DNA of 64,000 nucleotides, from contig NZ_RHNY01000003.1 of the NCBI RefSeq assembly GCF_003946345.1, positions 1 through 64,000 on the forward strand, written 5' to 3'. Positions 1-64,000 of this stretch are shown here, piece after piece. A program made the translations under genes and the position numbers. The notes under the pieces were generated by a model. That model saw nothing but the letters and a program-made list of their open reading frames with translations, had not been told where the DNA came from and did not search any database. This DNA comes from Levilactobacillus tongjiangensis. GTDB lineage: Bacteria > Bacillota > Bacilli > Lactobacillales > Lactobacillaceae. Every line of letters begins with the position of its first letter. Position 1 is the stretch's first letter.

Positions 1-170
1 TTTTTCCAGGCTTCAAACCGAGCCGAAGGACCGCTTTTCAGGCCGCAGGCGTTCCCCACAGCAGGCGGAATCTCTGAGCACCGCAGGTGGCTGAGTGAGA
101 CTAATTTTAAGTCTATAACGTCTGATTATTCTTGGTTCGATAATGGCTTTCGAACTTTCAACCTTTAATT
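1..170 (-). repeat. Intergenic repeat family A, copy A1 (runs off the window edge)
   Basis: Read on the minus strand, positions 1-78 match copy A7 near the end of the window over about 70 bases, including the motif CCTGCTGTGGGGA and the stem strand starting TCAGAGAT. Positions 79-170 carry an upstream extension shared with copies A2 and A7, with a small hairpin AGACT/AGTCT. The distal half lies outside the window. No protein-coding signal is seen. Confidence 0.8.
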
Positions 171-7550: not shown

Positions 7551-7697
7551 GTTATTTTTGCCGGTTTCCCGGGGTGTTGTTAGTATTGTGCCATGATACT
7601 TGCGAAAAAGCAACCGTTCGGGCGTTTATTAATTTAATTATACGGCTTGACGTTTTTACCAGTCTAAGGTAAACTCAATCAAAATCAACTTTAACTT

Positions 7698-7797
7698 AGC
7701 CCTGTGAGACTAAAAAGGTGAACGGATGACCGCCCTCAGTGGAGATACTGGGGATGGTTAAAACCGGGTAGCCCGCTGCAGGCTACCCGGTTTTTTT
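7698..7797 (+). promoter_or_regulatory. Probable PyrR attenuator of pyrFE
   Basis: CCTGTGAGACTAAAAAGG (about 7701-7718) resembles the PyrR-binding anti-antiterminator loop of Firmicutes pyr operons. It is followed by a strong terminator, AACCGGGTAGCC pairing with GGCTACCCGGTTTTTTT (7761-7797), immediately before pyrF. When UMP is high, PyrR binding would favour the terminator. The assignment rests on motif likeness and position. Confidence 0.7.
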
Positions 7798-14472: not shown

Positions 14473-14483
14473 CTGAGGAGAGA

Positions 14484-14656
14484 GTGTGGTAAAAGACGGT
14501 TAGTCAATAAGCATTAACGTCGATAGACGAATAATCCTGGTCTTGGATTGTTTGTCTATTGGGGGTAAGCGGAGTTGACTGTCTTTTGTCGCACGTTTCA
14601 ACTATATATGTTTGAAGCGTAGAAAGGGGGTGAGACAAAAGTCTCAACCCCTTTCT
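14484..14656 (+). repeat. Hairpin repeat family B, copy B1, with terminator
   Basis: A 111-nt unit (14484-14594) has terminal arms GTGTGGTAAAAGAC and GTCTTTTGTCGCAC and an inner hairpin GATAGAC/GTCTATT. It is followed by a second hairpin at 14621-14656 (AAAGGGGGTGAGAC with GTCTCAACCCCTTT). It matches B2 and B3 in length and order, with paired base changes. Confidence 0.85.
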
Positions 14657-27175: not shown

Positions 27176-27206
27176 TTGCCTTGAAGTACACATGAAGGTT
27201 TAACCT
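27176..27206 (+). promoter_or_regulatory. MerR-type promoter/operator 1
   Basis: TTGCCT (27176-27181), a 19-bp spacer with dyad CCTTGAAGT and ATGAAGG, and -10 TAACCT (27201-27206). The long spacer is the hallmark of MerR-activated promoters. It drives the NAD(P)-binding protein and merR genes. Confidence 0.7.
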
Positions 27207-27293
27207 AAGGTCATTCAAGTTTAAGCGTTGTTTTGAAAAACAGACCATCAGCGTGTCTAAACGTTGGTGGAATCAGATAAAGGAGTCTTTATA

Positions 27294-29229: not shown

Positions 29230-29398
29230 ATGTCATTACTATGCCAAATTTAGTTAGTATGAAACGAATTAAGGGTAGTTACCTATCGGGTGGCTACTTT
29301 TTTCGATATGGCGACGCTAAACGATCATACCTGAGCCCAGCGAATTAAGCCCGTGTAATTGGATGGGTGACAATTTATTTTTAAAAATTTTCAAAGTA

Positions 29399-29442
29399 AA
29401 GGGGTGACAAATGACGGTTGGATTTCGTTAGTAAGAGTAGGC
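29399..29442 (+). repeat. Short repeat C, copy C2
   Basis: It shares GGGGTGACAAAT and TTTCGTTAGTAAGAGTA with 254-297. It lies upstream of the flavodoxin promoter. The surrounding 29230-29530 interval has no gene. Confidence 0.5.
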
Positions 29443-30044: not shown

Positions 30045-30075
30045 TTGCCTTGAAGTGAACTTTAAGGTTTAAGCT
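30045..30075 (+). promoter_or_regulatory. MerR-type promoter/operator 3
   Basis: TTGCCT (30045-30050), 19-bp spacer with near-perfect dyad CCTTGAAGT-GA-ACTTTAAGG, and TAAGCT (30070-30075). Confidence 0.75.
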
Positions 30076-30108
30076 AGGTTTATCAGTTAAAAATTGGAGG
30101 ATGAATTT

Positions 30109-33405: not shown

Positions 33406-33565
33406 TCAAACCGAGCCGAAGGACCGCTTTTCAGGCCGTAGGCGTTCTCCACAGCAGGCGGAATCTCTGACAACCGCGGGTGGCCGGGTGAGACCAATTG
33501 TAAGTCTATGACGTCTGTCTATTCTTGACTTGATAACGATTTTCGAACTTTCAACTTTTAGTGAT
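33406..33565 (-). repeat. Intergenic repeat family A, copy A2 (truncated)
   Basis: On the minus strand it holds the shared upstream extension (33472-33565) and the first half of the core, including CCTGCTGTGGAGA and GCGGTCCTTCGGCTCGG. It breaks off near the stop of the Crp-type gene, so the second half and closing stem are missing. Confidence 0.8.
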
Positions 33566-34272: not shown

Positions 34273-34303
34273 TTGCCTTGAAGTCCACATGAAGGTCTAA
34301 ACT
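34273..34303 (+). promoter_or_regulatory. MerR-type promoter/operator 4
   Basis: TTGCCT, 19-bp spacer with CCTTGAAGT and ATGAAGG, and TAAACT. It drives the broken MFS gene. Confidence 0.7.
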
Positions 34304-34340
34304 CCTAATCATTCACTTAAAGACGAGGAGTAAAAATAAT

Positions 34341-35155: not shown

Positions 35156-35166
35156 TTAAAAAGAGA

Positions 35167-35337
35167 GTGCGATAAAAGGCGGTTAGTCAATGAGCATTAG
35201 CGTCGATAGCCGAATAATCCCGGTCTTGGATTGTTTGGCTATCGGGGTTAAGCGGAATTGACTGCCTTTTGTCGCACGTTTCGACCATTTACGTTCGGAG
35301 CACAAAAAAGGGCTTGAGACTGTTGTCCCAAACCCTT
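35167..35337 (+). repeat. Hairpin repeat family B, copy B2
   Basis: 111 nt (35167-35277) with terminal arms GTGCGATAAAAGGC and GCCTTTTGTCGCAC and inner hairpin GATAGCC/GGCTATC, followed by a hairpin AAGGGCTTGAGAC/GTCCCAAACCCTT at 35308-35337. The outer and inner stems differ from B1 by paired changes. Confidence 0.85.
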
Positions 35338-36558: not shown

Positions 36559-36716
36559 GCCAGGAACCGCGCAGTGTCGATGTCCTTAGCCGGTGATTAT
36601 CCGGCTTAGGACATGGGCCGAGCTTGGAAACTCACGGGTTAGGTGAGGTTTCAAGTCGCCCTGGAGACTCGTGATTTGTCGAGGCTTCAGGGTTGCCCCA
36701 CAGCGCGGTCCCTGGC
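36559..36716 (-). repeat. Intergenic repeat family A, copy A3
   Basis: On the minus strand the core is bounded by GCCAGGGACCGCGC and GCGCGGTTCCTGGC. It includes CGACTTGAAACC, GTTTCCAAGCTCG and an inner hairpin AGCCGG/CCGGCT. It shares these in order with A4 and A5 but is more diverged. Confidence 0.75.
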
Positions 36717-43467: not shown

Positions 43468-44040
43468 TTAAAGGAGAATTGCCAAACCGACAATGATAAA
43501 TAAAACTGGTGAGAGCCTGGCGCCGAAGCGAGCAAAGAAATAGCTAGCTGGGGCCGATTTGGCTAGGTAATAGCTGATGGTCAACCAACCACCAATCATG
43601 ACTAGAAAGATTAAACTGACCGCTCCAAACGCTGGCAAGGTGAGCTTACTAAAGTAGGGGATGTAAATACTGAGATTGTCCCCACCGTTGCCGACGGTCA
43701 ATGACCAGACGACTGGTAGACTGACGGCACGGGTCAACAGGGATTTTAGCCCGCCGGTGTCACGGTGTCGTAACCAATTGCGGAGGCCCATGGTTCCCAG
43801 CAACAGGGGAATCACCCCCAGCCAGCGCGTCCAGTGGACCACATTAAAATGCACGACACCGCGACTGATGATCCACGCTGCCAGCATGAGGGTGATGATT
43901 CCTAGATACTGGCCAATAATTACGGAGCGGCGTTGTTGGGGCGTCTTGGCTGCTAGCCAAAGTAATAGGAGTACGATTAAGTCATCGGTATCCGTGACGA
44001 AGAAAATCCCGATGGCGGTGAAGATAAACGATAGTGACAT
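43468..44040 (-). CDS. cadD: CadD-family cadmium resistance transporter
   Basis: A 190-residue membrane protein with five or six helices. The helix 1 motif TDTDDLIVLLLLW and the later SLTVGNGGDNLSIYIPYF are the CadD family signatures, both carrying Asp/Asn likely for metal binding. The start is the ATG after AAGGATGG; the upstream ATG is too close to that site. CadD-type proteins export cadmium or act as small cation pumps. No CadC-type regulator is adjacent. Confidence 0.85.
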   Translation of the reverse strand: MSLSFIFTAIGIFFVTDTDDLIVLLLLWLAAKTPQQRRSVIIGQYLGIITLMLAAWIISRGVVHFNVVHWTRWLGVIPLLLGTMGLRNWLRHRDTGGLKSLLTRAVSLPVVWSLTVGNGGDNLSIYIPYFSKLTLPAFGAVSLIFLVMIGGWLTISYYLAKSAPASYFFARFGARLSPVLFIIVGLAILL

Positions 44041-44122
44041 GCGCCAATCCATCCTTCTCTAGAGGGTATGTTCTATCATACACTAATTGGGGGAAGTAGT
44101 ACTATACTGGCCGCTTCCGGCC

Positions 44123-44287
44123 GCCAGGGAGGGTGCCTGCTGTGGGGACTGCTTCCGGCCTGAGGAGCGGTCCTCCAGCGCGACTTGAAATCACGCCAAG
44201 CCCGCGTGTTTCCAAGCTCGTCCCGTGGCCTAGACTCGGTCAGCCCGCCGAGTTAACGCCACCGACACAGCCGCCACCCTCCCTGGC
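44123..44287 (+). repeat. Intergenic repeat family A, copy A4
   Basis: A 165-nt core closed by a perfect 13-bp stem, GCCAGGGAGGGTG with CACCCTCCCTGGC. Inside are CCTGCTGTGGGGA, the hairpin GAG-CGGTC-CTC and the inner hairpin ACTCGG/CCGAGT. It lies in an 800-bp gene-free interval. Confidence 0.88.
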
Positions 44288-44407
44288 GACCTCCGTTTAC
44301 GGTAGTGAGTGAGGCTTCTGGCGGTGAGATGTGTATGATGGAAAAGAGAGCGTATTTTGTCTGGTAGAAGATAATTCAGACGGATAATTTGTTGGCCGCC
44401 TCTGATG

Positions 44408-44572
44408 GCCAGGGAGGGTGCCTGCTGTGGGGACTGCTTCCGGCCTGAGGAGCGGTCCTCCAGCGCGACTTGAAACCACGCTAAGTCCGCGTGTTTCCAA
44501 GGTCGTCCCGTGGCCTAGACTCGGTCAGCCCACCGAGTTAACGCCACCGACACAGCTGCCCCCCTCCCTGGC
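44408..44572 (+). repeat. Intergenic repeat family A, copy A5
   Basis: The same 165-nt core as A4, 285 bp downstream in direct orientation. The stem is GCCAGGGAGGGTG with CCCCCTCCCTGGC and the inner hairpin ACTCGG/CCGAGT. Differences from A4 are few and scattered. Confidence 0.88.
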
Positions 44573-44707
44573 GACCTCCGGCTACGGTGGTGGGGCGAGT
44601 TTTTGTTGGTGGCTTGTGTACGAGTGATAGACTGAAACTTTGATATGAAATTGTCGTCCAGATGTTTTAGAGATAAGTCGGAGATTGATGAAATTTGAGA
44701 TTTCTCA

Positions 44708-44785
44708 CGAAGGCTGAGAAGCCCGTTTCTCAGGCTGAAGCGTCCCCACAGCAGGCCCCACTCCCGTCCGCCGGAGTGCGATGCC
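44708..44785 (-). repeat. Intergenic repeat family A, fragment A6
   Basis: On the minus strand it holds CCTGCTGTGGGGACGC and CAGCCTGAGAAACGGGC, matching the first half of the core in inverted orientation to A4 and A5. The second half and closing stem are absent. Confidence 0.65.
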
Positions 44786-44799
44786 AACTGCTTCGACCA

Positions 44800-44836
44800 C
44801 AAAAAAACACGCATCCCAGTGAACAGGGGATGCGTG
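44800..44836 (-). terminator. Terminator of the gtrA-like gene
   Basis: On the minus strand CGCATCCCCTGT pairs with CTGGGATGCG and is followed by TGTTTTTTT. Confidence 0.85.
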
Positions 44837-44855
44837 CGAATTTAGTTGGTTAACT

Positions 44856-45359
44856 TTAATCGGCAGGGGCAGGTTGGTTCTTGAAGACCAACTTCTTGGA
44901 GACGAAGAAGTTCAGAACTAACGCGATGATGTGGCCGATGACCTTCGTGATGGTCTTGTTGGCGCCAATTACGGAAATTCCTAACCATAACAGTAGCGTT
45001 TCAATCAAGAAGGTAATGACACGGGTCATGTAGAACGTTCCCATTTCCTTCATTGGCTTGTTTGACTTGTGCTTGAACACAAATTGACGATCCAACCAGA
45101 AGGAAACTTGAACACTGATCAGCCAGTCAATGAAGTTGGCCAATTGATATTCGATACCCATTGTGTGGTAGAACAGGTAAAACAAAGTGATGTTGATAAC
45201 CACTGAGACGGCACCGAATAAGAGGTAACGGGAAATTTGACCTTGAACTTTGTCTTCGACCTTTTTGAGTTCGGCGGCGTGTTCGTTTTCCGTTTCGGTT
45301 AACTCAGCTTCGTATTCCGACTCGGTAGTCGGATATTCATGATGACGTAATGGGGCCAT
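44856..45359 (-). CDS. GtrA-like flippase/translocase protein
   Basis: A 167-residue GtrA-family membrane protein with an unusual acidic, Glu-rich N-terminal extension (about residues 1-40) before the four-helix domain. RYLLFGAVSVVINITLFYLFY, SVQVSFWLDRQFVFKHK and LVLNFFVSKKLVFK are the family marks. GtrA proteins help transfer lipid-linked sugars or teichoic acid decorations. The ATG at 45359 is chosen; a TTG two codons upstream is possible. It stands alone without a glycosyltransferase. Confidence 0.87.
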   Translation of the reverse strand: MAPLRHHEYPTTESEYEAELTETENEHAAELKKVEDKVQGQISRYLLFGAVSVVINITLFYLFYHTMGIEYQLANFIDWLISVQVSFWLDRQFVFKHKSNKPMKEMGTFYMTRVITFLIETLLLWLGISVIGANKTITKVIGHIIALVLNFFVSKKLVFKNQPAPAD

Positions 45360-60985: not shown

Positions 60986-61072
60986 AGATGACACTAGGGG
61001 TGCCAAGTGGCTGAGATGGTGAATGCCAATCCCTTTGAACCTGTTGAGTTAGTGCTCGCGAAGGAAAGTGTG
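60986..61072 (+). promoter_or_regulatory. TPP riboswitch (THI element)
   Basis: The THI-box core is plain: ACTAGGGGTGCC, CTGAGATGG, AATCCCTTTGAACCTG and TGCTCGCGAAGGAAAGTG. It lies 88 bases before thiW and controls it by thiamine pyrophosphate. Confidence 0.96.
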
Positions 61073-61087
61073 CGGTTGGTTGGGGAA

Positions 61088-62174: not shown

Positions 62175-62217
62175 GTAAATCCCCTCCGATGGGAACAAGT
62201 ATAGCAAATATTCGAGA

Positions 62218-62383
62218 GTGAGACAAAAGGCTGTTAGTCAATGAGCATTAACGTCGCTAGACGAATAATCCCGGTCTTGGATGGTTTTCCTAGCGGGGGT
62301 AAGCGGAGTTGATTGTCCTTTATCGCACGTTTTGGCTAGATATATTTGAAGCACAAAAAGTCTTGAGATTTTTGTCCCAGACT
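62218..62383 (+). repeat. Hairpin repeat family B, copy B3
   Basis: A 111-nt unit (62218-62328) with inner hairpin GCTAG/CTAGC instead of GATAG/CTATC, and outer arms beginning GTGAGACAAAAGG and ending CCTTTATCGCAC. A final hairpin AGTCTTGAGA/GTCCCAGACT follows at 62359-62383. Confidence 0.85.
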
Positions 62384-63639: not shown

Positions 63640-63925
63640 AAATTTAACTAAAGGTTGAAAGTTCAAGAGCCGTTATCAAGCCAAGAATCGTAAGGAATTG
63701 TAGACTTAAAACTGGTCTTACCCAGCCACCTGCGGCAGTCAGAGATTCCGCCTGCTGTGGGGAACGCCTGCGGCCTGAAAAGCGGTCCTTCGGCTCGGTT
63801 TGAAGCCTGGAAAAACCGCCAGTCTCCAAACGCGTCCCACGCTGTAAGCCGAAAATCGGCTAACACCGTCGACACAGCTGGCTCCATCTCTGACCACCTC
63901 CGGTTAAACGGGTTCTTGGAAACTA
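63640..63925 (+). repeat. Intergenic repeat family A, copy A7
   Basis: Upstream extension (63640-63737) followed by the full core (63738-63894) closed by GTCAGAGAT with ATCTCTGAC, with the inner hairpin AGCCGA/TCGGCT. The first 70 bases of its core equal those of A1. Confidence 0.88.
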
Positions 63926-64000
63926 ATTTAGATTAAACACCTGAATAACAGCACTTACTCAATATTATTGGCGCTGCACTGGGTAGCCGAGAGTGAGTCA
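63926..64000. other. Window end, no feature seen
   Basis: No coding frame or motif is recognised in the last 75 bases. Confidence 0.5.

Follow-up and report, generated by a model that had tools for sequence, protein, structure and literature searches.

Large palindromic intergenic repeats of Levilactobacillus with a branched fold selected in place

Introduction

REP-like repeats of bacteria have roles such as the protection of 3' ends and attenuation. As described in the accessible parts of the source papers, REP, BIME and REPIN elements are high-copy extragenic palindromes that are paired in inverse orientation (PMC3116915, PMC3733652). The repeat family described here resembles them in these features; however, its arms measure 165-200 nt and carry several branches, whereas the units given in the same texts span 20-40 bp (PMC3116915, PMC3733652).

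Repeats of Gram-positive bacteria provide a further comparison. The bcr1-bcr18 repeats of the Bacillus cereus group are intergenic families, like the one described here, some of them MITE-like and some structured and transcribed (PMC3446304). According to the available text of that study, MITE-like family repeats were reported in UTRs, about half or fewer of the bcr copies occur in transcripts, and among three MITE-like families only bcr3 correlates with the rate of mRNA decay (PMC3446304). The likeness to the bcr repeats is drawn from their description, and compensation at orthologous copies is not among the features reported in that text. A systematic search for folded repeats led to a set of stem-loop families which includes Lac-1 of Lactobacillus johnsonii (PMC2267715). 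No Levilactobacillus genome is mentioned in the available text of that work, and Lac-1 is set beside the present family by description only.

The repeats were studied from a window, that is, a whole stretch of 64,000 nucleotides at the start of contig NZ_RHNY01000003.1 of Levilactobacillus tongjiangensis. No description of the family was found in the literature searched, including the available text of PMC2267715, PMC3733652, PMC12306157, PMC3446304, PMC3116915 and PMC7967276, a search that left supplements and most subscription papers outside its scope. We read REP, REPIN, MITE and bcr repeats as the nearest kinds, from which the family is set apart by the size and branching of its arms, its spread over genera and the compensation at orthologous copies.

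Copies of the repeat in the window and the genome

The window contains four full copies of the repeat (A3, A4, A5 and A7) and three partial ones (A1, A2 and A6), with the coordinates given in Table 1. A first-pass annotation of this DNA had proposed seven copies in both orientations, always located between genes. All seven were confirmed in position and orientation, none of them overlaps a gene called in the window, and the helix pairs quoted at that time are present in the sequence.

Table 1. Copies of the folded repeat and the longer MITE-like repeat in the window
Feature	Position	Strand	Description
A1	1..170	-	partial MITE-like repeat truncated at the start of the contig; structured over about 1-105
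A2	33406..33562	-	partial MITE-like copy comprising the left flank and the initial part of the core
A3	36559..36716	-	full core copy flanked by a Mem_trans gene and a malic enzyme gene
A4	44123..44287	+	full core copy (covariance model); homology reaches about 44095-44314; reverse strand folds better
A5	44408..44572	+	full core copy in tandem with A4 (96% identity); homology reaches about 44382-44600
A6	44718..44776	-	59-nt fragment, inverse to A5 (nhmmer)
A7	63738..63894	+	full core copy within the MITE-like repeat
MITE-like repeat	63646..64000, and past the window end up to about 64235 of the contig	+	about 590 bp, TIRs TAAAGGTTGAAAG/CTTTCAACCTTTA

A BLASTN search with A4 found 42 places in the own genome. 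An alignment of 59 own copies, which also defined the plus orientation, was the basis of a covariance model that A3, A4, A5 and A7 match along its full length. All 150 scored candidates of the own genome, from 978 in total, match this model (weakest E-value 8.7e-17), so the genome holds at least 150 copies. In the relative G028 (main contig 2,648,638 bp), 138 of the 150 scored candidates match.

Repeats of other kinds occur in the window as well. One of about 151 nt has three copies (14479-14629, 35162-35312 and 62213-62363), with 81-85% identity to the first. Another, which contains GGTGACAAATT and TTTCGTTAGTAAGAGTA, lies at 243-294 and 29388-29439 and adjoins a folded copy in the own locus L257 and in the G028 locus L168. 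A 39-nt repeat beginning with TTGCCTTGAAGT is found at 27176-27214, 30045-30083 and 34273-34311.

Distribution across genomes and database searches

BLASTN detected the family in 26 of 58 relatives, all of them from the own genus. The search of relatives with a covariance model, a check suggested by the first-pass annotation, found it in 33 of 35 Levilactobacillus genomes (G022 and G031 are without copies) and, in diverged form, in two other genera. Across the order, 4 of 198 genomes match, including the own one, and the other three represent these two further genera of the same family, Lactobacillaceae; weak relatives may be missed at this scale because the filters were stricter and 14 candidates were scored per genome. 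An exact 20-base pattern matched 28 stretches in GTDB genomes, which belong to Levilactobacillus or to one uncultured Lactobacillus assembly, the species being Levilactobacillus yonginensis, mulengensis, lanxiensis, wangkuiensis, parabrevis and fuyuanensis. The own loci share 90-93% DNA identity with the loci of L. yonginensis.

Carriage by plasmids or phages was considered and rejected, as A4 found no BLASTN match in plasmid or phage records (one query each). Furthermore, Rfam 15 gave no match at the gathering score over the family in the whole window. When E-values up to 10 were allowed in the region 44000-44900, weak matches to four RNA families of eukaryotes or archaea appeared, one of them over A4 and all far below the gathering score. 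A match to a known Rfam family had been named at the outset as a finding that would speak against the proposal; none was obtained at the gathering score in the window, and no credible one below it in the A4-A6 region. Elsewhere in the window, a TPP riboswitch lies at 60986-61083 (66.1 bits against a gathering score of 54.3), and a PyrR site at 7684-7797 is barely above its gathering score (54.1 versus 54).

The fold

Each arm consists of a 165-nt core with an outer stem of about 20 nt on each side. The RNAalifold consensus comprises this outer stem, its continuation GCTGTG/CACAGC, a central GGGA/TCCC helix (also given as GGGAC/GTCCC) and three hairpins. The stretch CCTGCTGTGGGGA, earlier taken to be unpaired, turned out to be mostly paired in the consensus fold, CTGTG with CACAG and GGGA with TCCC.

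In the 59 own copies, 91.8% of the cells pair; sliding the 3' partner by 1-3 columns lowers this share to 32.0-42.5%. Changes on both sides occur at 47 of 60 pairs, and the covariation score is 0.406, versus at most 0.086 for the slid pairings. A structure-blind test of all column pairs (G-statistic with average-product correction) placed its 13 best pairs entirely within the fold. Beyond the genus, 35 independent matches (29 from G198 and six from G136 and G129) pair in 92.8% of cells, change on both sides at 58 of 60 pairs and reach a covariation score of 0.641, versus at most 0.107 when slid, in an alignment that was fitted to the covariance model and is hence biased towards its fold. RNAalifold recovers the same architecture from the 29 G198 rows, though their columns come from this model-fitted alignment. 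The suggestion that the two strands of each helix change together is thus borne out in both sets, and the refuting outcome named at the outset, a larger alignment lacking covariation, did not occur. A4 alone has a folding z of -6.2 on the reverse strand (200 shuffles), and 12 copies examined out of the 59 reach a z of about -7 on either strand. Conservation of the fold extends from the genus to other genera.

In the paired columns, A-C mismatches outnumber G-U in the alignment orientation (108 versus 57 in the 59 copies), as they do among single-sided in-place changes (153 versus 92), so the reverse strand folds better; this holds for 55 of 59 own copies and 105 of 118 G028 copies. G198 exhibits no strand preference (13 of 29), with A-C to G-U at 25 to 38. 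In a control with the RNase P RNA of 30 Levilactobacillus genomes, analysed by the same procedure, the ratio of G-U to A-C is 76 on the true strand and 1.8 on the wrong one, while the element reaches 4.5 on its better strand. The options are a requirement for near-strict Watson-Crick pairing, a role for both strands, or DNA as the molecule concerned.

Selection at orthologous copies

For an in-place test, own copies were matched by their flanking sequence to loci of G028, L. yonginensis and a few other Levilactobacillus loci. Non-MITE copies differ at 456 of 9832 paired sites (4.6%) and at 398 of 3609 unpaired sites (11.0%) in 83 comparisons that are not fully independent, since the own genome is common to all and some copies occur in both relatives. 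Four 400-nt target bins of this test were matched by more than one own copy. The adjacent intergenic DNA of the non-MITE copies, 30-150 nt past the 3' side, differs at 1468 of 8233 sites (17.8%). Among 35 Watson-Crick pairs changed on both sides, 32 became another Watson-Crick pair, against a mean expectation of 4.9 and a maximum of 12 in 1000 shuffles in which the new 3' letters were permuted among like pairs within one copy. In the 16 comparisons of MITE-type copies, the differences amount to 3.8% for paired sites, 9.3% for unpaired sites and 11.5% for adjacent DNA; three compensations were observed against a mean of 0.3, a number that the shuffles reach as well. Gap columns make up 1.3% of the core and 6.8% beside it. 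Unpaired columns conserved across the family differ at 5.9% and variable ones at 12.0%, in a set that includes loosely paired MITE-type copies.

This constraint does not depend on the orientation of the neighbouring genes. Paired sites differ by 4.26% where the 5'-side gene is sense (66 comparisons) and by 4.30% where it is antisense (29), and the values for the two orientations of the 3'-side gene are 5.1% (40) and 4.2% (37). Copies without a partner differ by 3.6% (37 comparisons) and copies in pairs by 5.1% (62). Next to stop codons the constraint is no stronger than elsewhere. Concerted evolution is an unlikely cause of the slow change: identity among random own copies is just 64%, against differences at 5-11% of sites between orthologues. 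The slow change of paired sites and the compensation at orthologous copies show that selection acts on the fold in place; with their shape kept in this way, the repeats have the appearance of functional elements and not of junk.

Genomic context and arrangement

Copies lie between genes: 3 of 150 own copies share more than 40 nt with a called gene, with genes called by a simple hexamer score. The 5'-side gene points towards the copy in 67 of 93 non-MITE cases (alignment orientation); the distance from stop codon to core has a median of 56 nt, and in 24 of the 67 sense cases the copy starts 20-35 nt past the stop codon. Divergent contexts are rare, at 7 of 88 copies versus 7 of the 39 gene pairs in the window that are at least 100 bp apart, a comparison with a small background in which pairs are counted twice. 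The neighbouring genes in the window are diverse, with seven proteins that include transporters, malic enzyme, GtrA-like and cNMP-binding ones.

Neighbouring copies within 1 kb are mostly inverted with their 3' sides facing, both in the own genome (24 of 28) and in G028 (30 of 36). In G198, a plus copy is followed by a minus copy in 12 of 14 loci fetched, and the reverse order does not occur among them (by reading). Recent inverted duplication was rejected as the source of these pairs: 22 non-MITE pairs are 0.610 alike, compared with 0.641 (sd 0.068) for random copies. Three same-strand neighbours are 0.88-0.93 alike.

The distribution of the 138 copies along the G028 chromosome (loci L155-L214) is clumped, with a variance-to-mean ratio of 4.6 in 100-kb bins. 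Both chromosome arms are nearly devoid of copies for 110 kb from the origin, a copy-poor stretch lies farther out, and copies appear again near the terminus; origin (1.75 Mb) and terminus (0.43 Mb) were placed by the GC skew of the fetched loci. The copies have no replication-orientation bias (78 versus 60), with the origin guessed in the same way.

Mobile origin

A1, A2 and A7 share about 90 nt of flank because all three belong to one longer repeat. Its layout includes 13-bp terminal inverted repeats, the arm A7, a spacer and a diverged second arm in inverse orientation. The terminal pattern has 82 matches, against 6 for a reversed control. Apparent target duplications of 8-9 bp were seen by eye in several of 12 aligned MITE-like copies and are unclear in others, and the part of the A7 repeat within the window contains no ORF of at least 80 aa. 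The subfamily resembles bacterial MITEs in these respects. The family as a whole differs from them, as the flanks of the 590-bp repeat accompany 53 of 150 aligned own copies and are absent from 97, and its arms are structured and selected in place. An autonomous element with the same terminal repeats was sought by eye in the own genome, where no pair was found 0.7-3 kb apart. Units of about 260-280 bp with the terminal repeats of the MITE-like element and without a listed core match (e.g., own contigs C1:71812-72075 and C23:108058-108339) are perhaps internal deletions.

In the listed non-MITE pairs, neither terminal inverted repeats beyond the arms nor target duplications were seen by eye. 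Only three of the spacers between arms are alike across loci, all from the MITE-like repeat. A two-armed unit of about 545 bp occurs repeatedly in G198, with one or two blocks at about 86-96% identity and with ends near the arm ends; no clear target duplication was seen by eye. Descent from mobile units is supported by the 590-bp MITE-like subfamily and by these two-armed units.

Comparison of the own copies with G028 loci gave 80 filled sites, 16 not aligned and 54 uninformative, with empty sites under-sampled because the loci were fetched for holding copies. Seven differences were inspected, and none is a clean insertion: two are internal deletions that left both stem ends, one is a tandem-copy difference, and the remaining four are partial deletions, arm-to-arm joins or unclear alignments.

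In a further likeness to REP sequences, many copies read on the reverse strand have a GTAG run at one of their ends; MITE-borne copies do not keep it. This run prompted the idea of REP/RAYT mobilisation, which was rejected, as Y1 transposases (PF01797) do not track the family: present in 24 of 40 genomes, they occur in the copy-free G022 but not in the copy-rich G002 and G012, in contrast to what REP and REPIN systems would lead one to expect. Single copies of REP or REPIN repeats are expected to decay and doublets to be conserved, whereas partnerless copies of this family are not decaying.

The first-pass annotation had offered two readings, an RNA under structural selection and a mobile palindromic element whose transcript folds. 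Structural selection holds at orthologous copies, but its attribution to RNA does not follow, given constraint that is independent of gene orientation and a strand signal absent in G198. The mobile ancestry of the second reading is upheld by the MITE-like subfamily and the G198 units. Selection on the fold and mobile ancestry are supported as layers of one history.

Proposed explanation and its rivals

We read the family as an outsized REP/REPIN-like repeat of mobile origin, now kept for its fold, with a hairpin at transcript ends as its most likely function. In the proposed explanation, to which a probability of roughly 0.4 is assigned, large palindromic repeats that came from mobile elements are now sedentary and are kept for a fold that acts on transcripts at gene ends. 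The palindromes usually consist of two arms in inverse orientation, and a transcript crossing a gene end from either direction would fold there into a stable branched hairpin. This hairpin may shield mRNA 3' ends and/or limit read-through into the next or convergent gene, and the sedentary copies would be retained for it. As a palindrome works on both strands, the explanation fits equal constraint in all gene orientations. It is favoured by the in-place rates, the compensation, the few gaps in the core, the location past stop codons, the scarcity of divergent contexts, the folding z on either strand, the inverted neighbours and the example of bcr3 in B. cereus. Against a simple sense 3'-UTR role, the better-folding strand in Levilactobacillus is antisense to most 5'-side genes; against the gene-end hairpin itself, constraint is no stronger beside stop codons and G-U pairs are few in comparison with RNase P RNA. 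The way the flanks evolve does not point to a conserved promoter next to the copies (in a set that includes loosely paired MITE-type copies), and no U run of an intrinsic terminator is seen by eye directly after the hairpin in the alignment.

The main rival assigns the fold a role in DNA, where a folded single strand or cruciform would be bound by a host protein and serve nucleoid organisation, supercoiling, replication or recombination independently of transcription. The few G-U pairs keep a DNA structure in consideration, and the clumping on the G028 chromosome and the constraint independent of gene orientation also suit it; on the other hand, the location near stop codons and the few divergent contexts point to transcripts, and the lack of a replication-orientation bias counts against it, so that this role is judged unlikely. 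Somewhat less probable still, and disfavoured as the whole story, is plain mobile DNA, in which the arms would represent the termini of REPIN- or MITE-like transposons, with a fold that serves transposition only. The MITE-like subfamily, the two-armed unit of G198 and the inversion of neighbours agree with it, but selection and compensation act at copies that stay in place between species, partnerless copies are no less constrained than paired ones, no inspected G028 difference is a clean insertion, and Y1 transposase genes do not follow the family.

Compensatory changes could also arise mutationally, if replication switches templates between the arms of an imperfect palindrome, a mechanism described in the accessible part of PMC8794818 that requires no selection. 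Both the long outer stem and local hairpins indeed contain compensatory pairs. However, arm-to-arm copying alone, by our reasoning, would not reduce the overall rate of change at paired sites, roughly one quarter of the value beside the element, and it leaves unexplained the few gaps and the slow conserved unpaired columns (in the set with loosely paired MITE-type copies); it is considered quite improbable. A discrete trans-acting or ligand-binding RNA, such as an sRNA or a riboswitch-like element in many copies, comes last by a little. Its branched fold with conserved unpaired positions would be appropriate, but it has no Rfam relative, the flanks change fast within about 30 nt, so that no conserved promoter is seen (again in the set including loosely paired MITE-type copies), and the neighbouring genes in the window are diverse. 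Moreover, we know of no riboswitch regulon that reaches 150 copies.

The repeats may form an undescribed class, for which the odds are put a little short of even: sedentary, individually selected branched palindromes of about 200 nt, more than 100 per genome, that would derive from a two-armed mobile unit and mark gene ends in Levilactobacillus, with diverged forms in other Lactobacillaceae, acting on any transcript or strand that crosses them. A long-standing question is whether interspersed palindromic repeats of bacteria persist as selfish passengers or because they serve a function. This family allows a direct test, given the size of its fold and the number of orthologous copies that can reveal selection on structure in place. 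In addition, the family supplies deletion targets and a covariance model for a food-related genus.
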